A DNA stretch of 22,063 nt, taken from a virus. Below the pieces are notes generated by a model. That model worked only from the letters and a program-made list of their open reading frames with translations, was not told where the DNA came from and did not search any database. Positions 1 to 22,063 of this stretch are shown here, in pieces (the first letter of the stretch is position 1; each line of letters starts with the position of its first letter). The translations under genes were made by a program, and so were the position numbers. Where the stretch lies: the IMG/VR virus record IMGVR_UViG_3300042478_002875, positions 1 through 22,063 of that record; one strand, given 5' to 3'.

Positions 1-1
1 C

Positions 2-139
2 TGGGAACAAAACAAATTGAATCAATGGGCTGACAAGGGTGATATTGTTACTTTATCCAAACGCATTAATGGTGGAACAATAGGTCTTGAGGACCGAATT
101 AAGCATTATGAACATGCATTACATGTTTTAGGAGGGTAA
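2..139 (+). CDS. Endolysin, C-terminal end only (GH19/chitinase-like)
   Basis: The frame is open from the first bases of the window and stops at TAA 137-139. The 45 visible residues include the stretch DIVTLSKRINGGTIGLEDR. The 'RINGG..GL.DR' pattern is typical of the C-terminus of GH19-type phage lysozymes that cut peptidoglycan. The catalytic residues lie upstream of the window and cannot be seen. The next gene starts 2 bp downstream, and several small membrane proteins follow, as expected in a lysis cluster. It could be another muramidase with a similar tail. Confidence 0.62.
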   Translation, partial: WEQNKLNQWADKGDIVTLSKRINGGTIGLEDRIKHYEHALHVLGG

Positions 140-140
140 T

Positions 141-437
141 ATGTTCAACGATAGAAAATTATTTCTATGCTTATTGGTACTCATGGTTCTACCTTTGGGT
201 CTAGCTATTTTTGGTGGTGATAGATTTCGCTATCCATGTCAAGACCCTGCAAATTGGGATAAAGAGTTTTGTAAAATGCCAATATGTGATGTTAACAGAA
301 CTTGCCCAGAACACATATTTAAAGGCCAGCGCGACCCAAGATTAGGTCCACCACCAACAAGAACAGAACCTATGGTTCAAAGCGGAGCACCTGCCGCTTG
401 CACACCACCCGCACAAGGAGCAAATTGTGGAAAATAA
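141..437 (+). CDS. Small membrane-anchored or secreted protein in lysis cluster
   Basis: 98 residues. An N-terminal hydrophobic segment (about residues 7-25) follows a short charged start and acts as a signal or membrane anchor. A cysteine-containing segment follows (Cys at about 33, 44, 49 and 55, spaced as if for disulfides outside the cytoplasm). The C-terminal third is rich in Pro and Gln. The start is preceded by GGAGGG at 131-136, just 4 bp away. It overlaps the next gene by 11 bp and sits directly after the endolysin, so a role in lysis or envelope disruption is plausible. No family could be named. Confidence 0.7.
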   Translation: MFNDRKLFLCLLVLMVLPLGLAIFGGDRFRYPCQDPANWDKEFCKMPICDVNRTCPEHIFKGQRDPRLGPPPTRTEPMVQSGAPAACTPPAQGANCGK

Positions 438-900
438 TGCATTCGTTTATACCGAAGAACAGTTAATGGCCCGATTGAAGTTTTTCATCGGCGTCTGTCT
501 CGCACTTACATTAACAGGAATTGTTTTTGTTGTTCTATATTCTATCATTTTTGTTACGCAACCATTGAATGCGATTTCTCCAATTGACCAAAAGTTTTTT
601 GAGTTGATTATTCCTATCGCTACATTCTTGACTGGTACACTATCAGGTATCATGCTTGCTGGTGCTAAAAAAGAGGACCAAGAGGCAATGCTCGCTGCTC
701 ACAAAAATGCTAATGAAAATTTTGCTGAGACAAAGAAAGCAATGACTGCACCACCTAAGAAAGAACCAGAATTTGATTTTTCTTTACCTAAGGCACCTAT
801 GGGTGGTGGACTTTCACCAGCACCAGAAGTTGCACCACAAGTTACAACAGGTTTTGGTGGTAAGCCAGCGCCAGCACAAGCACCACAACCATTGCTATAA
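427..900 (+). CDS. Two-helix membrane protein with Pro/Ala-rich tail, holin-like position
   Basis: 157 residues, starting with GTG at 427. AAGGAG at 415-420 with a 6-bp spacer decides this start. Two hydrophobic segments (about residues 17-43 and 60-80) are followed by a charged region and a Pro/Ala/Gln-rich tail (about residues 105-157). The protein overlaps both neighbours (11 bp upstream, 1 bp TAATG downstream), so translation is probably coupled. Position next to an endolysin and the paired membrane helices suggest a holin or accessory membrane protein, but the long tail is unusual for a simple holin. Function is inferred from context only. Confidence 0.68.
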   Translation: MENNAFVYTEEQLMARLKFFIGVCLALTLTGIVFVVLYSIIFVTQPLNAISPIDQKFFELIIPIATFLTGTLSGIMLAGAKKEDQEAMLAAHKNANENFAETKKAMTAPPKKEPEFDFSLPKAPMGGGLSPAPEVAPQVTTGFGGKPAPAQAPQPLL

Positions 901-10631: not shown

Positions 10632-11035
10632 ATTGGTCATATAATAATCAAGACTTCACCGAAGATTTGATTAATGATTATTATGGTTTTGTTTATGTAA
10701 TCACAAACACTGTTACTGGTAAACAGTATATTGGTAAAAAGTTCTTTTACTCCTCAAAAACAAAACAAGTTAAAGGTAAAAAGAAACGATTTAAAGTTTT
10801 TAGTGATTGGCAAAGTTACTATGGTTCCAATGAAGAACTTAAAAAAGACGTTGCAACTTACGGTAAAGAAAATTTTAAAAGAGAGATAAAACACCTTTGC
10901 AAAACAAAAGGTGAATGTGGTTATCTTGAAGCAAAAGAACAATTTGTCAATGGTGTTTTGGAGAGTGATGTGTATTACAATTCATGGATTATGGTAAGAG
11001 TGCGAAAATCACACATCAAAGGATTACAATGTTAA
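10622..11035 (+). CDS. GIY-YIG family nuclease
   Basis: 137 residues. The family signature appears as F-V-Y (residues 23-25, in YGFVYVITN) and Y36-I-G38 (KQYIGKK). Downstream are the phage-type YYGSNEELKKDVATYGKENF stretch and a catalytic glutamate candidate in LEAKEQF. Such proteins cut DNA and are common in T4-type phages as free-standing (homing) endonucleases or as recombination and repair nucleases. The short single-domain form lacks an obvious DNA-binding extension. It overlaps the zinc-ribbon gene by 10 bp and the next gene by 7 bp, so it looks integrated into the operon rather than newly inserted. Confidence 0.82.
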   Translation: MGLNWSYNNQDFTEDLINDYYGFVYVITNTVTGKQYIGKKFFYSSKTKQVKGKKKRFKVFSDWQSYYGSNEELKKDVATYGKENFKREIKHLCKTKGECGYLEAKEQFVNGVLESDVYYNSWIMVRVRKSHIKGLQC

Positions 11036-14022: not shown

Positions 14023-16128
14023 ATGAATCTGATTGACTCAAAATCTATTTTGGCCAAACTGATGGCCACCGAAGACCTGATCGTTGAACAGCGTAATGTA
14101 TCAACGGCTTTCTTTGATGTGCAGAACCGGATTCTTACAGTTCCTGTTTTGGATAAAAATATCTCTTCTCAACTTTATGATCTTTTCATGGGACATGAAG
14201 TTGGCCATGCTCTGTATACTCCTTTGGAAGGCCTGAAGAAATCCAAAGAAGAAAAAGTCAACATGTCGGTTTTGAACATTGTTGAAGATTCCCGCATCGA
14301 GCGTAAAATCAAATACAAATATCCTGGTCTAAAGAACTCTTTTGTAAAAGCTTATCAAGAGCTTCTGGAAAGAAATTTCTTTGAAACGACCGGCAAAGAC
14401 CTTAATGAGTATAACTTCATTGATCGTGTAAACCTGCACTGCAAAGGTGGCGCATTGCTTACTATTAAATTCAACGAAATCGAGCGCGAATTGCTGGGTC
14501 TTGTTGAATCAACCGAAACTTTCGATGAAGTTGTTGAAGTCACTAAAAAAATTATTGACTACATGAAGTTTGAAGAAGAGGAACGCAAAAAACAAAAAGA
14601 AGAACGCGGAGAAGACGACTCCGATGAAGATTATGACATTGAAGAATATGAACTAGAAGAAAGTGATCCTCCTAGTGATGAAGAAGATGGTGAACCAAAA
14701 GATCAGAGTGAAGATAATTCTGAAGAAACTGAGAAAGAGGCCAATTCTTCTTCAAGCAATAAAGATGATAAAAAATCCGACAAAGATGAAGAAGAAAAAA
14801 TTCGTTCTAAAACGGATGACGCCTATCGTAAAAACGAATATCAGTTGTTCGCTAATGATGACACCGAAATTCGTTATGTGAATATTCCAGATTTCAAAGT
14901 TGAGAACAACATCTTTGATTATAAAGATGTGTACAAACGATATGAAGAAGAAGGATATGATATCGCCAAAAAAGAATTCGATTCGTTCCGTAGAGATTCG
15001 AACAAAGTTGTTTCCTATCTTGTCAAAGAATTTGAAATGCGTAAGAATGCAGATCAATTGAAACGTGCTACGACAGCGAAAACCGGTGACTTGAATATGA
15101 AACAGGTGTTCTCATATCAATTCAATGAAGATATCTTCAAGAAAATTACTGTGGTGCCTGGTGGTAAATCACATGGATTGATCATGTTTGTTGACTGGTC
15201 TGGTTCGATGGCTCGTCACCTTGCAAATACAATCAAACAACTACTTAATCTTGTAATGTTTTGTAAGAAGGTGAATATTCCTTTTGAAGTGTATTCTTTT
15301 GTTGAGAGCACCATTACAGAAAATTCATCAACATTCAAATCAAAGAAAAATGATTTTGTGATCAATGATTTTGGTCTAATCAATTTGTTGTCTAGTCGAA
15401 TGTCGGCCAAAGATTTTACTTATGCTGGCGCTGCTCTAATGTATATGGGTGGATTATCATCTTATCGTGCAATTCCCCGTACTCCTCACTGGATGGCCTT
15501 GTCGGGTACTCCGTTGAACGAAACAATTATTGCTGCTATGGAAATCATTCCTTATTTCCAGAAAAAATACAAGTTGCAGATTGTTAACACCGTTTTTCTG
15601 ACTGACGGTGATGGACACTCTTTGTCACAGTATCTACTCAACGATAAACCTTATCACACTGGAGATGTTCGTTATTCTCTTTCGAGCAGTAGAACGAAAA
15701 AAGTTAATAAGGTTGTAATTCGTGATACGAAAACCAAAAATCAAGAAGAATATCAAGCGGATTCTTATCACAATGGTCAAACTTCAGCTCTTATTAAATT
15801 GTTGAAGGCAAGAACCAAATCTAATGTGATTGGTTTCTATATTGCTCATGGTAAAGACTATCGTCAGAAAGTTGATCACTTTATTCCTATAACTAAGTCT
15901 ATTGAAAGAGAAAAGGCAAAGAAAGATAGGTATTGTGTTGTGACAAGTGCAGGTTTTGATGACTACTATATCTTGCGTTCGGAGTCTATGGACACCGATG
16001 AAGACAACGAACTTGTCGTCAAAGAAAACGCAACGACACGTGGTATTGTATCTGCTTTCAACAAGTATACGGGTAACCGAGTTGGTAATCGTGTGATTCT
16101 TAACCGTTTCATCAATCTTATTATTTAA
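14023..16128 (+). CDS. CobT-like protein: metallopeptidase-like domain, acidic linker, VWA domain
   Basis: 701 residues, the largest gene here. The N-terminal part has a zinc-peptidase-like H58-E-x-G-H62 (MGHEVGHAL) and a downstream NIVEDSRIERK (87-95) whose acidic residue could be the third ligand. A low-complexity acidic linker (about 185-265) follows. The C-terminal part is a von Willebrand A domain with the MIDAS motif D391-W-S-G-S395 (IMFVDWSGSM). T4-like phages often carry this as a 'CobT-like' protein beside a CobS-type AAA+ ATPase; no CobS gene lies in this window. In cells CobS/CobT assist cobalt insertion; in phages the role is unknown. Confidence 0.85.
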   Translation: MNLIDSKSILAKLMATEDLIVEQRNVSTAFFDVQNRILTVPVLDKNISSQLYDLFMGHEVGHALYTPLEGLKKSKEEKVNMSVLNIVEDSRIERKIKYKYPGLKNSFVKAYQELLERNFFETTGKDLNEYNFIDRVNLHCKGGALLTIKFNEIERELLGLVESTETFDEVVEVTKKIIDYMKFEEEERKKQKEERGEDDSDEDYDIEEYELEESDPPSDEEDGEPKDQSEDNSEETEKEANSSSSNKDDKKSDKDEEEKIRSKTDDAYRKNEYQLFANDDTEIRYVNIPDFKVENNIFDYKDVYKRYEEEGYDIAKKEFDSFRRDSNKVVSYLVKEFEMRKNADQLKRATTAKTGDLNMKQVFSYQFNEDIFKKITVVPGGKSHGLIMFVDWSGSMARHLANTIKQLLNLVMFCKKVNIPFEVYSFVESTITENSSTFKSKKNDFVINDFGLINLLSSRMSAKDFTYAGAALMYMGGLSSYRAIPRTPHWMALSGTPLNETIIAAMEIIPYFQKKYKLQIVNTVFLTDGDGHSLSQYLLNDKPYHTGDVRYSLSSSRTKKVNKVVIRDTKTKNQEEYQADSYHNGQTSALIKLLKARTKSNVIGFYIAHGKDYRQKVDHFIPITKSIEREKAKKDRYCVVTSAGFDDYYILRSESMDTDEDNELVVKENATTRGIVSAFNKYTGNRVGNRVILNRFINLII

Positions 16129-17726: not shown

Positions 17727-18029
17727 ATGCCAGTATTTGATGATATGAAATTCGAACACCAAGAGTTTGCAATTGGCGGTAAACTCGTTACCGGTAGTAT
17801 AATCGTTAAAGAATACGAATACCAAGATCCAATTGCAGTTCAAAAAGTAATCAAAGAAAAACTCTTAGAAAGATTAGTGAATCATATCATAGAGAATAAA
17901 CTTGCAGAATTCACTATGGTTAAAAATCCAATAGAAGATTCCAGAATTTACAGAGTCCGTTGTTACCTTGCACCAGACCACACTGTTAAGATTCTAAGAA
18001 CCCTTAAACAGAACCAATTACAGTTATGA
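17727..18029 (+). CDS. Hypothetical protein
   Basis: 100 residues, mostly alpha/beta with alternating charged and hydrophobic residues (AVQKVIKEKLLERLVNHIIENK), no cysteine cluster or membrane segment. The overlap with the following gene is 4 bp (ATGA). No family could be named. Confidence 0.62.
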   Translation: MPVFDDMKFEHQEFAIGGKLVTGSIIVKEYEYQDPIAVQKVIKEKLLERLVNHIIENKLAEFTMVKNPIEDSRIYRVRCYLAPDHTVKILRTLKQNQLQL

Positions 18030-18166
18030 AATACGTTTACTCAGAAGAATATGATGCGTATTACGATGAAGACACCAATGAGTGGCTTGATGATAAGTGT
18101 GATGATCCGAATTGTGAATTCTGTATGAATAGACCAGAAAAACCACTGGAAAAATTAGATGAATGA
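18026..18166 (+). CDS. Tiny acidic Cys-containing protein
   Basis: 46 residues, very acidic with many Tyr, Asp and Glu, and a C-x5-C-x2-C cluster (KCDDPNCEFCMN) that may bind metal. Its start overlaps the previous stop (ATGA) and its stop overlaps the next start, the normal packing of this block, which supports that it is real. Confidence 0.58.
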   Translation: MKYVYSEEYDAYYDEDTNEWLDDKCDDPNCEFCMNRPEKPLEKLDE

Positions 18167-18446
18167 ACTTGTAGAAAAAAGACTATTAACCAGAAAGAAA
18201 AAACCAAAGGCTGGTTATCATCCGAACAGTGCGCCCTATAAAGTTATTGTGCATCCCTATCATTCTGATCCGTATATTAAAAGAGAATATTTGACAAAAG
18301 AGAAGGCTGAGAGATATGCTTTGGAACTATCAAAGAAATATAGATGTAAGATAACAATCGAATATATTAAGGTTTCCGGTCCAGGAAAAAAATTCGAATC
18401 TTCAGATTCCGGCCCAGAAAATAAAAAATTGGAAAAAAGAGTTTGA
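18159..18446 (+). CDS. Basic hypothetical protein, last of rightward block
   Basis: 95 residues, basic at both ends (TRKKKPKAGYHP at the start, KKLEKRV at the end), with His/Tyr-rich middle (VHPYHSDPYIKREYL). It is the last gene of the 18-kb rightward block. Downstream, GGTGGGGCTTTTT at 18450-18463 resembles the end of a terminator, but no convincing left stem arm could be found. Function unknown. Confidence 0.62.
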   Translation: MNELVEKRLLTRKKKPKAGYHPNSAPYKVIVHPYHSDPYIKREYLTKEKAERYALELSKKYRCKITIEYIKVSGPGKKFESSDSGPENKKLEKRV

Positions 18447-18541
18447 CCTGGTGGGGCTTTTTATTATATACGCGCTCACCCATACCCCCCATCCATACCC
18501 CATAACAGCTGCCATGGCAACCAGCAGCCACCATATAAGCC

Positions 18542-18565
18542 AAAAAAAAGGACGCCGAAGCGTCC
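18542..18565 (-). terminator. Rho-independent terminator for leftward module
   Basis: Read on the minus strand, GGACGC-TTCG-GCGTCC is a perfect 6-bp GC-rich stem with a UUCG tetraloop, followed by eight Ts. It lies 28 bp past the stop of the GP88-family gene and closes the leftward gene set against the converging rightward block. Confidence 0.93.
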
Positions 18566-18593
18566 CAAAGCAACCACCAACCACTAACCAATA

Positions 18594-19241
18594 TTAAGCA
18601 GCCACTGCTATCCGAATAACCTTTGCCATTTTCCGTCCATGGGCCGGATATCCAACCACTGCCACATCCTTGGAGTAGCAGGCACGGCAGCCATTACACT
18701 TGCCACCATGCTCATATGCACGGCACAGCGTGACACCAGCAGGCACATTGGATGCATCCGGCAGGATGGTGCTGCCATGGACACCATCCGTATACGTACC
18801 ATCCACAGCATCACTGGATGGACGGACCATGACATTAGGCAGTGCTTGCATGGCAGCAAGGATGGCAGCGAATTTAGTAAACTTATGCATCCTAGTGGGC
18901 AGCCAGTGCTTTACATGGGGAGTAGCCACCATGACAGCGTACATTTTCTCCGCAAGCTCAAGGCTGTACATGTCCCCAGAATCGAACCACCGGAAGAAGC
19001 GCTGTTTGGAGAGCGCTTTCACCATGGTGTCCACCCAGTCAGCTTCCTGCCAAGCCAGCTTATTGTCGAAGCGGACGGCTTTGACGCCAGGGAAATTGTA
19101 CATTCCGGTGGTAGCGTAGCAACCAGAGCAAGCAGCGACCAGGTCGCCGTTGGTGGCTTTGCTGCCGGGGCAAGTCTCAATAGCTTGCAGCGACCAGGAC
19201 AGGATGTTGTCCAGCTTGGAGGTTTTGGAGAGCTTATTCAT
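18594..19241 (-). CDS. GP88-family cysteine-rich phage protein
   Basis: 215 residues. Matches the plan of the phage 'gene product 88' family: an N-terminal TCPGS segment with cysteines C24, C38 and C41 (SGCYAT), a central RWFDSGDMYSLELAEK stretch, KHWLPTRMHK, and a C-terminal group C173, C182, C185, C188 (CRAYEHGGKCNGCRACY). The cysteine spacing suggests a bound metal or iron-sulfur cluster, and the biochemical role is not known to me. AAAAGG precedes the ATG, and promoter and terminator (19272-19299, 18542-18565) are its own. The GC-rich, CAGC/GCC-rich composition differs from the rightward block. The longer-looking plus-strand frames across it are shadows. Confidence 0.85.
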   Translation of the reverse strand: MNKLSKTSKLDNILSWSLQAIETCPGSKATNGDLVAACSGCYATTGMYNFPGVKAVRFDNKLAWQEADWVDTMVKALSKQRFFRWFDSGDMYSLELAEKMYAVMVATPHVKHWLPTRMHKFTKFAAILAAMQALPNVMVRPSSDAVDGTYTDGVHGSTILPDASNVPAGVTLCRAYEHGGKCNGCRACYSKDVAVVGYPAHGRKMAKVIRIAVAA

Positions 19242-19271
19242 TTTCTTGCCTTTTCTTGAATCGATGGATGG

Positions 19272-19299
19272 ATTATGACAGGACCAGAGGAAATGGCAA
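19272..19299 (-). promoter_or_regulatory. Leftward sigma70-type promoter P1
   Basis: On the minus strand TTGCCA (19294-19299), 16 bp, CATAAT (19272-19277). Drives the GP88-family gene. Upstream, minus-strand ACTAAAGTTTA (19303-19313) is separated from the -35 by 3 bp; the same box is at the promoters at 20164 and 20746. Confidence 0.85.
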
Positions 19300-19371
19300 C
19301 TGTAAACTTTAGTACTCCATCCGCCTGGTCAACCTCTTGCCAAGGACAATGGACTATGATAGGCTGCTCGG

Positions 19372-19509
19372 TTATGCTAGGACTGTACCGATTTGCTTGG
19401 CAATGCTGACAACACCATTCCAGAGGATGTTAGCGGTGGCCATGGTTTGCACAGGAAACGCAGCACCAAGAACCATGAAACCAAAAGCAAGCAGCAACCG
19501 AATGATCAT
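19372..19509 (-). CDS. Small membrane or exported protein
   Basis: 45 residues, hydrophobic N-terminal segment (IIRLLLAFGFMVLGAAF) then a weakly charged tail ending IAKQIGTVLA. Its ATG overlaps the stop of the preceding 33-residue gene (ATGA), and GGAG lies 6-7 bp upstream inside that gene. It is probably cotranscribed with the 19607-19870 gene. Function unknown. Confidence 0.6.
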   Translation of the reverse strand: MIIRLLLAFGFMVLGAAFPVQTMATANILWNGVVSIAKQIGTVLA

Positions 19510-19607
19510 ACAGCTCTCCAAAAGAAAACGTCCATACCAACCACGAACAATGCAAGCGCACCAACCACGGACAGGATCAGCAGCTCATGGCGATCAAAAA
19601 AGGACAT
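19506..19607 (-). CDS. Very small membrane protein
   Basis: 33 residues, a single hydrophobic helix (ELLILSVVGALALFVVG) flanked by charged ends. The ATG overlaps the stop of the previous gene (TAATG), and AAGGGGG is a clear ribosome site. Tandem overlap on both sides supports translation despite its size. Resembles small phage inner-membrane proteins; role unknown. Confidence 0.62.
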   Translation of the reverse strand: MSFFDRHELLILSVVGALALFVVGMDVFFWRAV

Positions 19608-19870
19608 TAAGCCCCCTTGGTGATAGTAACAGCACCAGCCTTGCGGTTGGCTTTGGCAGCCTTGGCACCAACCTTGCCGACCTGCTTGGACAGCAGCTTC
19701 TGGAGGCGAGCCTCTGCCTTAGCGATGGCAGCTGCCTGCTTGGCTTCTGCAGCCTCCAGCTTCTCTGCTTTCACCCGAGCAGCCAGCTGCTGGATCATAG
19801 CTTTAATTTCCTTAACATCAGCGCGAGCCTTACGGAGAGCTGCAACGGAGGGGGAGAGAGTCTTGGACAT
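19607..19870 (-). CDS. Ala/Lys-rich coiled-coil protein
   Basis: 87 residues. The N-terminal two-thirds is a predicted coiled coil (VAALRKARADVKEIKAM, then AEAKQAAAIAKAEARL). The C-terminus is basic and glycine/alanine-rich (AKAAKANRKAGAV), like a histone-type DNA-binding tail. GAAAGGAAG is the ribosome site in a leader shared with the 20500-20718 gene. First gene of a three-gene unit with the two tiny membrane proteins. Nucleic-acid binding is inferred from composition only. Confidence 0.7.
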   Translation of the reverse strand: MSKTLSPSVAALRKARADVKEIKAMIQQLAARVKAEKLEAAEAKQAAAIAKAEARLQKLLSKQVGKVGAKAAKANRKAGAVTITKGA

Positions 19871-19900
19871 ATTGTCTTCCTTTCAAATTACGATGGTTGA

Positions 19901-19928
19901 ATTATGACAGAATTGGAGGGATTGGCAA
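19901..19928 (-). promoter_or_regulatory. Leftward sigma70-type promoter P2
   Basis: Minus-strand TTGCCA (19923-19928), 16 bp, CATAAT (19901-19906). Drives the 19607-19870 gene. Upstream lies minus-strand CCGGTCAA (19944-19951) followed by ATCCAATGGAT, as at the promoter at 20441. Confidence 0.85.
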
Positions 19929-19952
19929 GCATCCATTGGATACTTGACCGGA

Positions 19953-20153
19953 TTAGTATGATTGACCACCAGGAAAACGCTCCCGGCTCCGACCAGGTTC
20001 GTGATAAGATTCGAAAACCTTCTCCTTAAGCTTGGTGCCACGAACCGTGCGGATGGCTTGAATCTCCGCCTCCAAGCGCCGGTGTTCGGTATGGTAAGCT
20101 TCCAAAGCCTTGGCTTGGAGGGCTTTTAATTCTCGGATAGATTGTGTTTTCAT
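19953..20153 (-). CDS. Small charged helical protein, possibly leaderless
   Basis: 66 residues from MKTQSIREL (or 67 from the ATG at 20156). Predicted helix (ELKALQAKALEAYHTEHRRLEAEIQAI), then a basic end (ESYHEPGRSRERFPGG). No recognisable family; a faint likeness to H-NS oligomerisation segments was considered but is not convincing. There is no ribosome site: the -10 at 20164-20169 ends only 7 bp before the ATG at 20156, so the transcript probably starts at or next to the start codon. Confidence 0.65.
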   Translation of the reverse strand: MKTQSIRELKALQAKALEAYHTEHRRLEAEIQAIRTVRGTKLKEKVFESYHEPGRSRERFPGGQSY

Positions 20154-20163
20154 CATGGAATGG

Positions 20164-20191
20164 ATTATGACAGAACCACAGGAAGTGGCAA
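20164..20191 (-). promoter_or_regulatory. Leftward sigma70-type promoter P3
   Basis: Minus-strand TTGCCA (20186-20191), 16 bp, CATAAT (20164-20169). Transcription should start at about 20157, placing +1 at the ATG of the next gene. The upstream box reads ACTAAGGTTGT (20195-20205) and overlaps the stop of the 20201-20413 gene. Confidence 0.82.
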
Positions 20192-20200
20192 TATACAACC

Positions 20201-20413
20201 TTAGTTCTCCAGCGGAGCGAACGGCTTTGCCATTTCATTATTGCAGGCCGCCGGGAACACTTTGCGGATGTCCTTGTGAACTGTCGCCAAAGACACTTCG
20301 AAGATCCAAGCCACAGTCTCCGCTCCTTCGGCACTGGGCCACAAAGCACCGCTATGATACTGGTGAGCTTTGGCTAAAGCCAGTTCCCAGATCGCTTCTT
20401 TGTAAGTTTTCAT
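20201..20413 (-). CDS. Small helix-turn-helix protein
   Basis: 70 residues from MKTYKEAIWEL; AAGGAGCTGACC decides this start over an in-frame ATG further upstream inside the promoter. The stretch AETVAWIFEVSLATVHKDIRKVF reads like a helix-turn-helix with a recognition helix (SLATVHKDIRK) similar in pattern to DeoR-type repressors. The protein is too short for more than a DNA-binding head. It could regulate the repeated promoters that surround it. Confidence 0.65.
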   Translation of the reverse strand: MKTYKEAIWELALAKAHQYHSGALWPSAEGAETVAWIFEVSLATVHKDIRKVFPAACNNEMAKPFAPLEN

Positions 20414-20440
20414 GGTCAGCTCCTTGTTGTCTATGTGTGT

Positions 20441-20468
20441 ATTATACCGGAACCGTGGAGAATGGCAA
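20441..20468 (-). promoter_or_regulatory. Leftward sigma70-type promoter P4
   Basis: Minus-strand TTGCCA (20463-20468), 16 bp, TATAAT (20441-20446, perfect). Drives the 20201-20413 gene. Upstream is minus-strand CCGGTCAA (20483-20490) and ATCCTTGGAT, matching the arrangement at 19901-19951. Confidence 0.9.
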
Positions 20469-20499
20469 CCATCCAAGGATAGTTGACCGGACTGGAGGG

Positions 20500-20718
20500 T
20501 TATTCCTCCTTAGCCAGCTCCTTGCCCATATCAAAGTCCAGGCATTCCTGAAGCGTAGGCTCGGGGAAGGCCAAGCACTCCTGCTCGACCATTTCACAAT
20601 AGACCTCAGCCACCCAGGACACGGGGACCTCATACTTGGAGGCAATCTCCGCAAAGGTCAAAGGACCATCCAGTATGTCCTTTTGGATATCAAAAACAAG
20701 GTTGGACATAGCGCTCAT
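20500..20718 (-). CDS. Small helix-turn-helix-like protein
   Basis: 72 residues. TFAEIASKYEVPVSWVAEVY has the spacing of a helix-turn-helix (first helix FAEIASKY, recognition helix VSWVAEVY). The C-terminus is acidic (ECLDFDMGKELAKEE). GAAAGGAAGAT is the ribosome site; an ATG at 20709 is a second choice. Encoded next to the other HTH candidate and among identical promoters, so a role in timing of this module is plausible. Confidence 0.65.
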   Translation of the reverse strand: MSAMSNLVFDIQKDILDGPLTFAEIASKYEVPVSWVAEVYCEMVEQECLAFPEPTLQECLDFDMGKELAKEE

Positions 20719-20745
20719 ATCTTCCTTTCAAATTACAATGGTTGG

Positions 20746-20773
20746 ATTATGGCGGATCCACAGGAAATGGCAA
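20746..20773 (-). promoter_or_regulatory. Leftward sigma70-type promoter P5
   Basis: Minus-strand TTGCCA (20768-20773), 16 bp, CATAAT (20746-20751). Drives the 20500-20718 gene. The upstream box is minus-strand ACTAAAGTTTA (20777-20787), 3 bp from the -35, identical to that at 19303-19313. Confidence 0.88.
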
Positions 20774-20806
20774 CCATAAACTTTAGTATTCCATCACCTT
20801 GGTCGG

Positions 20807-20956
20807 TTATTCCACAATCCGATACTTCCCGCTTTTGGGGAGGACGGTACCGTATGCACCAGCAATCCATACGGCGCGCTGGTAATGTGAAGCAGCAATG
20901 TACATTGTGACAACCTCACCATCCGGCTTCAGAATTTTGAGCTCATACCGTGTCAT
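20807..20956 (-). CDS. Small hypothetical protein
   Basis: 49 residues from ATG 20956. AAAGGA is 6 bp away; an ATG at 20962 lies too close to it. Sequence mostly beta-like with KILKPDGEVVTMYIAAS and PKSGKYRIVE. First gene of the leftward module, reading from the control region. No family recognised. Confidence 0.65.
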   Translation of the reverse strand: MTRYELKILKPDGEVVTMYIAASHYQRAVWIAGAYGTVLPKSGKYRIVE

Positions 20957-20985
20957 CCGCATTCCTTTGTTTAACCGATGGATGG

Positions 20986-21014
20986 ATTATGGCGGAGGAT
21001 GGAAGGATTGGCAA
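20986..21014 (-). promoter_or_regulatory. Leftward sigma70-type promoter P6
   Basis: Minus-strand TTGCCA (21009-21014), 17 bp, CATAAT (20986-20991). Drives the 20807-20956 gene, and possibly the rest of the module. The first transcribed bases (CCATCCATCG) match those of P1. The CCGGTCAAG inverted repeat lies 23 bp upstream. Confidence 0.86.
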
Positions 21015-21037
21015 GCGCTCAGGAATGATCCAGCGGA

Positions 21038-21059
21038 CCGGTCAAGAATGCTTGACCGG
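21038..21059. repeat. Perfect inverted repeat, candidate operator
   Basis: CCGGTCAAG (21038-21046), spacer AATG, CTTGACCGG (21051-21059). The right arm covers the -35 of the rightward promoter at 21052-21079, and the whole site is upstream of leftward P6, so one regulator could act on both directions. Confidence 0.8.
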
Positions 21060-21079
21060 GGCTCCAGCTCTGGTATAAT
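21052..21079 (+). promoter_or_regulatory. Rightward promoter P7 with extended -10
   Basis: TTGACC (21052-21057), 16 bp, perfect TATAAT (21074-21079), preceded by TG in the extended position (TGGTATAAT). Start expected near 21086. Its -35 lies inside the inverted repeat at 21038-21059. No gene follows for almost 190 bp, so it makes either a long leader or a small RNA. Confidence 0.85.
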
Positions 21080-21085
21080 GGACTC

Positions 21086-21173
21086 ATTCGAAAGCAGCCT
21101 GGGGTGGACGCTGGGGCTGCGTGACTGATCCACGACTATCGATACCTCTGCCGCGATAGGAATTTCCAATCGC
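21086..21173 (+). ncRNA. Candidate structured leader or small RNA
   Basis: The expected transcript of the promoter at 21052-21079 has no supported gene here. It could fold into three elements: GCAGCC/GGCTGC (21094-21099 with 21115-21120), CTATCG/CGATAG (21136-21141 with 21154-21159), and the dyad at 21153-21173. The second and third share 21154-21159 and exclude each other. No T-run follows. Existence as a separate RNA is a guess. Confidence 0.32.
21153..21173. repeat. 21-bp imperfect palindrome
   Basis: GCGAT-a-GGAA-t-TTCC-a-ATCGC: both arm pairs match fully, with single unpaired bases between. It lies between the two rightward promoters. It could be a protein-binding site or an RNA hairpin; without a T-run it is not a standard terminator. 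Confidence 0.6.
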
Positions 21174-21193
21174 AAAACGCTTGCCATAGCACT

Positions 21194-21207
21194 CCGGTCA
21201 AGAATGC
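21194..21207 (+). repeat. Direct copy of operator left half
   Basis: CCGGTCAAGAATGC repeats 21038-21051 exactly (14 bp). The matching right half (CTTGAC at 21216-21221) is shifted by about 9 bp, roughly one helix turn, and again overlaps a -35 element. Confidence 0.7.
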
Positions 21208-21216
21208 CAAAAGCGC

Positions 21217-21244
21217 TTGACAAACCGACCAATGCCTGTATTAT
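21217..21244 (+). promoter_or_regulatory. Rightward promoter P8
   Basis: TTGACA (21217-21222, perfect), 16 bp, TATTAT (21239-21244). Start expected near 21251, giving a short leader to the ATG at 21275 with GAAAGGCGA as ribosome site. Confidence 0.82.
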
Positions 21245-21274
21245 CTCATTATTGATTCAACGAAAGGCGACACC

Positions 21275-21484
21275 ATGAAAGCAGTAAAACTTCAGTATGC
21301 GGAAATTCGGAGTATTATCAGCAATATGTCCGAAGCATCATATTCAAAATATGGATCATATTCATATTCTGCTGGTTATCTGGAATCTCAATTGGCGCAA
21401 GTAATGGCCGATTTACCCGCTAATAAGCAAATTGATATTATCAAAACGCTTCAGCGGACCATTAATGATTTGCAAAAGGCATAA
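21275..21484 (+). CDS. Small hypothetical protein, rightward unit
   Basis: 69 residues with a clear ribosome site (GAAAGG) and its own promoter at 21217-21244. The middle is a Ser/Tyr-rich patch (SEASYSKYGSYSYSAGY) and the rest is helical (LESQLAQVMADLPANKQ). Composition is closer to the AT-rich block than to its leftward neighbours. No family recognised. The next gene starts 1 bp after its stop. Confidence 0.75.
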   Translation: MKAVKLQYAEIRSIISNMSEASYSKYGSYSYSAGYLESQLAQVMADLPANKQIDIIKTLQRTINDLQKA

Positions 21485-21485
21485 T

Positions 21486-21659
21486 ATGGATTATAAAATC
21501 GAATATGATGGCGAATTCTATAATGTATATTATGGAGATAATCATTTAGAAACCTTTTGGTCTCTGAGTGAGGCTCTGGATTATCGCGCTATTATGATAT
21601 GGGAGCGAGATAATGCCTTTCAGGACTATGGTACCGAGTGGGATATTGAGATGGTTTGA
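21486..21659 (+). CDS. Small acidic hypothetical protein
   Basis: 57 residues starting at MDYKIEYDGEFYNVYYG, acidic and rich in Tyr, Trp and Asp. It follows the previous stop by 1 bp, and the upstream GCAAAAGGCATAAT gives a ribosome site (AAAGG). A beta-rich start and a helix (LSEALDYRAIMIWERDN) are likely. Function unknown. It is the last gene before the origin-like region. Confidence 0.68.
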   Translation: MDYKIEYDGEFYNVYYGDNHLETFWSLSEALDYRAIMIWERDNAFQDYGTEWDIEMV

Positions 21660-21771
21660 GCGTCTCCTGCGTGATTTTGGTAGGTTTTGGATATATTTCG
21701 GTGCAATGCAGAAACTAAGTATCCAATCCTACTACCTATCCGCGACATTCTCCGCGCAGGTACGTACAGGC

Positions 21772-21802
21772 TGTGGATAACTTGTGGATAACATGTGGAT
21801 AT
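21772..21802 (+). repeat. Three DnaA-box-like 9-mers, 11-bp spacing
   Basis: TGTGGATAA (21772-21780), TGTGGATAA (21783-21791) and TGTGGATAT (21794-21802). The complement of the first two is TTATCCACA, the E. coli DnaA box consensus; the third differs at one end base. Starts are exactly 11 bp apart, so all face nearly the same side of the helix. Confidence 0.85.
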
Positions 21803-21803
21803 C

Positions 21804-21888
21804 ATCAGGTATGCATTATATTGCATAGTACTATAATGCATATCAGGTAAGCATTGAGGTAAGCATGGCGGTAGCGATCAGGTAGACT
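21804..21888 (+). repeat. Iteron-like repeats (CAGGTA-GCAT)
   Basis: ATCAGGTATGCAT (21804-21816), ATCAGGTAAGCAT (21842-21854), TTGAGGTAAGCAT (21854-21866) and ATCAGGTAGACT (21877-21888), with a weaker relative GCGGTAGCGAT between the last two. All in the same orientation. The same core recurs in the dyad at 21957-21979. Confidence 0.72.
21810..21842. repeat. 33-bp palindrome with 11-bp arms
   Basis: TATGCATTATA (21810-21820) and TATAATGCATA (21832-21842) are perfect inverse complements around an 11-bp centre. AT-rich, located between the first two iterons, a candidate for strand opening or cruciform formation. Confidence 0.8.
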
Positions 21889-21893
21889 CTATT

Positions 21894-21939
21894 TAATACA
21901 ATGGTTCTCATACTAAAACACTGGAGAACTATTGTATTA
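21894..21939. repeat. Large inverted repeat with 16-bp arms
   Basis: TAATACAATGGTTCTC (21894-21909) and GAGAACTATTGTATTA (21924-21939) pair with one mismatch (G-T, allowed in RNA) over a 14-nt loop. No T-tract in either direction, so not a standard terminator. It ends 2 bp before the -35 of the next promoter. Confidence 0.8.
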
Positions 21940-21941
21940 GG

Positions 21942-21970
21942 TTGACAAACGTTAGGAATACCTGTATGAT
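21942..21970 (+). promoter_or_regulatory. Strong sigma70-type promoter
   Basis: TTGACA (21942-21947, perfect), 17 bp, TATGAT (21965-21970, 5 of 6). Drives the partial gene at 22011. The -10 lies in the loop of the dyad at 21957-21979. Confidence 0.88.
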
Positions 21971-21979
21971 TCAGGTATT
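21957..21979. promoter_or_regulatory. Operator-like dyad over the -10
   Basis: AATACCTG (21957-21964) and CAGGTATT (21972-21979) are perfect inverse complements with the -10 hexamer between them. Each arm contains CAGGTA, the iteron core, as in plasmids whose initiator binds iterons as monomer and represses its own gene as dimer. Confidence 0.72.
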
Positions 21980-22010
21980 GATTGATTGATTCTTTACATG
22001 AGGTAACATT

Positions 22011-22063
22011 ATGACGCATTCTGATATTATTGAGATGGTAGACGATTTGTTGGATGAGCAAGG
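22011..22063 (+). CDS. Partial gene, start only (candidate initiator or regulator)
   Basis: ATG at 22011 with GAGG at 22000-22003 and a strong promoter upstream. Only 17 residues fit in the window, beginning MTHSDIIEMVDDLLDEQ, an acidic helix. The product cannot be identified. Its position after an iteron array and an iteron-derived operator makes a replication initiator a reasonable guess, but a repressor or unrelated early protein would also fit. Confidence 0.6.
   Translation, partial: MTHSDIIEMVDDLLDEQ

Follow-up and report, generated by a model that had tools for sequence, protein, structure and literature searches.

In textbooks, T4 is the example of a phage that relies on its own proteins to initiate and carry out replication. 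The 22,063-bp IMG/VR record analyzed here, taken whole and hereafter called the window, has the genes of a T4-type phage and, in an intergenic gap of its early region, a tandem array of putative binding sites for DnaA, the host replication initiator. What might such an array do in a phage of this type? A first-pass annotation had read the region as origin-like, possibly started with the aid of host DnaA, with the build of a theta-type plasmid origin and a hint of a phage-plasmid phase. We followed these proposals through the region itself, its counterparts in related phages and the origins that it resembles.

Source of the window

The exact 30-base array is also found in three other IMG/VR contigs, which are about 99.9% identical and belong to the same phage. 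One sister contig of 156,657 bp begins at window position 10805, and its end overlaps window positions 1-668 at 96.6%. Judged from these overlaps, the window is therefore a fragment of a T4-type phage with a circularly permuted genome of about 167 kb. The window record (G000) and this contig (G002) jointly span that map, which measures 166,793 bp when joined.

The T4-type character, with the phage's own primase, was borne out. The best-matching primases share 46-48% identity with that of the window phage and come from Kyanoviridae records, gp59-N and DnaB_C domains were found in the genome, and the T4-type replication set of primase, gp59 and replicative helicase is present. We searched G000 and G002 for DnaA-C, integrase, ParA and Rep_3 (N-terminal) domains, with Rep_3 as the one Rep family covered, and found none, which speaks against the suggested phage-plasmid phase. 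Window positions 18001-21000, a stretch shared with the sister contigs, have a G+C content of 0.44-0.52 against about 0.37 in the remaining window.

Anatomy of the region

The features of the region and its left flank are as follows.

18594-19241, minus strand: GP88-family gene (Pfam PF17338) of the early region
20986-21079: divergent promoter-like sites (minus strand 21014-20986, plus strand 21052-21079)
21275-21484, plus strand: 69-aa ORF with no PHROG or Pfam match
21486-21659, plus strand: short ORF upstream of the conserved element, counted from the ATG at 21486 (listed from the TTG at 21432)
21662-21759, plus strand: conserved non-coding element with the motifs AACTAAG (21713-21719), CGCGACA (21741-21747) and CCGCGCA (21752-21758)
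21757-21805: 49-bp lineage-specific segment containing the DnaA boxes, with CAGGTA flanks at 21757 and 21806
21772-21780, plus strand: DnaA box 1, TGTGGATAA, perfect match
21783-21791, plus strand: DnaA box 2, TGTGGATAA, perfect match
21794-21802, plus strand: DnaA box 3, TGTGGATAT, one mismatch
21807-21884, plus strand: AGGTA repeats at 21807, 21845, 21857 and 21880, and CGGTA at 21869
21810-21820/21832-21842: palindrome TATGCATTATA / TATAATGCATA, 11-bp arms with an 11-base spacer
21894-21909/21924-21939: inverted repeat directly upstream of the promoter, 16-bp arms, 94% complementary
21942-21970, plus strand: sigma-70-like promoter TTGACA-17-TATGAT, assigned purely by consensus match (11 of 12 positions)
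21957-21964/21972-21979: operator-like palindrome AATACCTG / CAGGTATT, overlapping the second promoter hexamer and carrying CAGGTA
22012-22063, plus strand: 5' end of the following early ORF, which is 84 aa long in a sister contig (L021)

The three DnaA-box-like 9-mers at exact 11-bp steps described earlier are there, two of them perfect. Such a triple, with no more than one mismatch per box, occurs once in the window, and 300 simulated windows with matching dinucleotide composition contained none. Individual boxes, with one mismatch allowed, occur across the window about as often as chance predicts (10 against 8.0 expected); what stands out is therefore the array rather than the number of boxes. 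Tandem consensus boxes about one helical turn apart are also a trait of bacterial chromosomal origins. Unlike these, the window array is phage-borne, and no phage DnaA-C domain was found with it. The exact 30-mer had 0 matches in the genome collection, and a copy of a host oriC was rejected on that ground.

The four CAGGTA/AGGTA iterons reported at 21804-21888 could likewise be placed. The first copy stands 38 bp apart and the later ones, CGGTA included, step by 12, 12 and 11 bp. Runs of AGGTA at 11-12 bp also occur in L026, L104, L035 and L060, and no run of three exact AGGTA copies is present in 8 of 12 loci, the window phage included. By eye, AGGTAA is similar to the ribosome-binding sites of the window phage, which somewhat weakens the iteron reading. 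Both large palindromes were recovered; that at 21810-21842 is identical in L026 and L104 and missing in L035 and L032, and the inverted repeat at 21894-21939 is kept in L026 and L104.

The interval was also found to be free of convincing genes from 21660 to 22011, as had been stated. Two ORFs of at least 60 aa fill it, both on the minus strand; by our own reading, the first is interrupted by an in-frame stop in L035 and starts beyond the 49-bp segment that is missing from L026 and L104. Sigma-70-like sites are abundant nearby, with 17 in positions 18400-22063 against 5.7 expected. The divergent sites at 20986-21079 and the GP88-family gene suggest that the genes left of the array run on the minus strand, and transcription may diverge near it. 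Genes at 19.2-20.9 kb are ambiguous, and the ORF picker chose plus-strand ones there. A repeated minus-strand promoter-like unit, TTGCCA-16/17-CATAAT, lies in several intergenic gaps of positions 19252-20991 with conserved flanks of up to 67 nt, and is suggestive of a group of related, strong early promoters. GP88-family relatives are also present in two other array-bearing loci (L260 and L271).

A variable slot beside a conserved element

We compared the orthologous regions of five close relatives (L026, L104, L035, L036 and L032). The non-coding element is 88-95% identical across 97-103 bp in these phages, and the promoter is kept in all five. L026, L104, L035 and L036 retain the phased AGGTA repeats, most of which are gone from L032. 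The 49-bp segment with the boxes is missing altogether in L026 and L104, the closest relatives, and its slot holds an unrelated tandem repeat in L035 and L036. The slot of L032 holds two boxes in the opposite orientation, and this stretch, when reversed, matches the window's at 22 of 23 bases. L026 does have two boxes, one perfect and one with a single mismatch, at a distance of 84 bp, but these stand at +1.4 kb, away from the site. Because slot contents differ between the window phage, L026/L104, L035/L036 and L032, the precise triple array is not conserved among close relatives. Conservation of the array had been named as a check on the origin reading, and here the exact triple box fails already in the nearest relatives.

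Box clusters recur at one map position

More distant relatives, which are metagenomic and many of them fragmentary, were aligned on a 701-aa gene at 14023-16128 (PHROG 459, 'peptidase'). Thirty-two loci were anchored on this marker, and 25 were used for simulation. A box-cluster score of at least 5 was reached by 5 of the 32 (the window phage, L056, L060, L074 and L083); in the simulation set the figures are 5 of 25 loci against 0 of 1,500 simulated sequences. All five clusters lie 4.3-6.4 kb past the marker gene, and the pair of L032 (score 3) lies at +5.2 kb, whereas 19 of the 25 anchored loci have no cluster at the site. Most of the recurrent clusters (L032, L056, L060, L074 and L083) adjoin the conserved element and precede an early promoter; in L056 the boxes are present and the element is doubtful. 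That the clusters return at one map position, with a conserved element alongside, speaks for a local role of the boxes.

A wider search covered 40 large contigs in which a relative of either the 701-aa gene or a 104-aa early gene is present. Tandem TGTGGATA pairs were found in seven of them (6 of 39 excluding the window phage) and were missing from 33. These contigs gave nine hits, against none for the reversed control pattern, and six of the nine pairs are exactly 11 bp apart, two of those in the window phage. None of T4 and eight named relatives (0/9) has a tandem pair, against one hit for the reversed control in this set. Among 160 loci of relatives (1.74 Mb), boxes spaced by no more than 60 bp occur at 10, five of which are the window phage. 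The boxes of G014 (locus L321) would lie 3.8 kb past the marker if the contig is circularized. G029 and G034 have pairs with no element seen alongside, and no gp59 match was found in G034 (383 kb). Among ten box-bearing contigs examined, gp59 is present in five, and several of the others are fragments.

Boxes are found in four of the seven marker-reached lineages with a clear element (L026, L104, L035/L036, L032, L060, L074 and L083), or in 4 of 10 when the weak elements of L067, L077 and L092 are counted; L244, L254/L233 and L321 were found through their boxes and are uninformative on this frequency. TTGCACTTTTTGACAC-like repeats lie near the slot in L067 (17909-17950), L092 (15799-15840), L077 (15560-15580) and L056 (18280-18320), and may be another repeat cassette.

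The conserved non-coding element

Diverged forms of the element were recognized in L060, L074, L083, L321, L244 and L254. In the first four, ACTAAG is followed by GCGAC and then by GCGC or GCGA upstream of the boxes; the elements of L060, L074 and L083 were first noticed while reading around their boxes. A diverged element is likewise seen in L244 and L254/L233; their proteins share 63-79% identity with those of the window phage. A strict composite pattern of the element returned seven stretches, all in lineages already known.

The loci from L013 on, among them 119 further viral stretches with arrays, were searched with a profile built from 11 element sequences. The strong matches are the model's own sequences or copies of them, a matter of consistency rather than discovery. 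Beyond these, the profile gave only weak matches in two loci without boxes, L077 (E 0.010, +6.9 kb from the marker gene) and L067 (E 0.012, +5.7 kb). L092, which was not among the profile matches, has a similar motif at +7.8 kb, also without boxes. Named phages were also searched at the DNA level with the window region, L083 and L060 as queries, and no T4-type phage was matched.

Could the element act as a structured RNA? Its predicted fold scores z -3.2 in the window and -1.5 to -2.4 in four close relatives, and only -0.6, -1.1 and +0.4 in L060, L083 and L074. RNAalifold showed 0 of 27 pairs changed on both sides, and Rfam returned just four matches, all far under their gathering scores. The fold of this short element is not conserved, and a structured RNA was rejected on these grounds. 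One possible compensatory change was seen by eye in L104 (GGTAG/CTACC against GGTAA/TTACC). We treat the element as a set of short sequence motifs, for which an RNA role is possible.

GC skew and duplex stability

An inflection of GC skew near the array had been proposed as a further check. Skew is positive in 47 of the 56 three-kb bins of the joined map. The bin at 18-21 kb dips slightly below zero between positive neighbors, and the strongest negative bins, at 45-51 kb, coincide with a block of minus-strand genes. The ORF map used in this comparison is rough, with 186 of 214 ORFs on the plus strand, including plus-strand ORFs taken at 19.3-20.9 kb, where in our view minus-strand genes lie. 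No inflection singles out 21.8 kb, and GC skew was rejected as an origin mark. The 60-bp stability scan of the region revealed no strong AT-rich unwinding stretch. Its lowest value, at the promoter, is in the 4th percentile of the genome; that of L244 is in the 33rd percentile of its own locus.

Other explanations for the array

Promoter control or DnaA titration would explain many of the facts behind the origin reading, and both are live rivals. Under the former, host DnaA or a CAGGTA-binding phage regulator would control the early promoter at 21942 and play no part in starting replication. This promoter lies 140 bp right of the boxes, promoter-like sequence was likewise seen by eye right of the boxes in L056, L060, L074 and L083, and the CAGGTA palindrome overlaps the second promoter hexamer. 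Yet L026 and L104 keep the promoter without any boxes, and the conserved element is found on the upstream side of the boxes, opposite to the promoter. We consider transcription control alone unlikely, while giving it real weight.

The array might instead be a decoy that titrates host DnaA and hinders initiation on the host chromosome, in which case its position in the genome would matter little. Triple 11-bp arrays, often of CCTGTGGATAACCTGTGGATAACCTGTGGATAACT, are present in at least 120 viral stretches (L001, L195-L313), mostly without visible relation to the window phage, and weaker matches occur in 11 named phage records (H28-H38), among them microviruses and coliphages. Such a spread would suit a decoy, but two to six sites are few for titration, and the clusters stand at one map position beside a conserved element rather than scattered. 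A decoy seems to us improbable. The Shigella phage VB_Ship_A7 has a similar array about 100 bases from the start of its record.

The CAGGTA copies that flank the 49-bp segment and the different slot contents of close relatives would also fit a neutral or recently copied piece, retained by chance in a fast-changing intergenic slot. We give this reading little credence, as box clusters recur at the same place in diverged relatives.

A theta-type plasmid origin serving a phage-plasmid phase can practically be set aside: the build is matched insofar as DnaA boxes adjoin phased direct repeats in the iteron plasmids RK2, P1, F and pSC101, but the window repeats of 11-12 bp are shorter than the iterons of 17-22 bp given for RK2, F, P1, R6K and pPS10 (both points from PMC4980987), and in place of a detectable Rep_3 or ParA (or DnaA-C or integrase) the phage has its own T4-type helicase, loader and primase.

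A possible early replicator of T4-type phages

The closest parallel appears to be oriE of T4. PMC3016281 describes oriE as having evenly spaced 12-nt repeats, whose role is still unproven, and a promoter of the early mode, in the neighborhood of a transcription switch. The window phage similarly has even repeats of about 12 nt and a promoter of early type, and the divergent promoter-like sites and minus-strand GP88-family gene would correspond to the switch. In T4, the repeats beside the annotated oriE (L315, 4427-4498) contain AGGTA three times at 24-bp steps, as the window phage has AGGTA; these repeats also encode part of gene 5, and the shared AGGTA may be chance. The T4 repeats are inside gene 5 and without tandem DnaA boxes, whereas the site in the window phage is intergenic, with boxes and a conserved element. 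For a Pseudomonas phage, an origin that contains DnaA boxes has been predicted by Ori-Finder (PMC11512268). In searches of an open-access library, we found no report of DnaA boxes in a T4-type phage.

We tentatively propose, with belief and doubt nearly in balance, that the region serves this T4-type (Kyanoviridae-like) phage as a module for early replication start, with the build of T4 oriE, in which host-DnaA boxes were gained or kept beside the element. The earlier suggestion of an origin-like region, possibly aided by host DnaA, thus survives in part: the recurrent clusters at one map position, the phased AGGTA repeats and the adjoining element speak for it, whereas the exact triple box and the GC skew do not. 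Early after infection, host RNA polymerase would transcribe the region. Host DnaA would bind the in-phase boxes and help DNA opening or R-loop formation, and a phage protein would bind the AGGTA repeats. The phage DnaB-type helicase and its gp59-like loader would then take over from the opened DNA to start replication, and later rounds would be recombination-dependent. DnaA would assist rather than be required, because the number, orientation and presence of boxes vary and most relatives are without them. The boxes are best read as an add-on, gained and lost, to an oriE-like early replicator.

A broader proposal, which we regard as possible and rather doubtful, is that this uncultivated T4-type clade uses a modular early replicator, in which a conserved element stands beside a slot that swaps host-DnaA boxes, AGGTA iterons and other in-phase repeats. 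Relatives offer a natural series, with three boxes, inverted pairs, five boxes or none. If the proposal is true, origin specificity evolves through the exchange of repeat cassettes, unlike anything known from T4, and in some lineages the T4-type replisome is started with the help of host DnaA. A clade that repeatedly has host-DnaA boxes at one early position would tie T4-type initiation to the replication initiator of the host.
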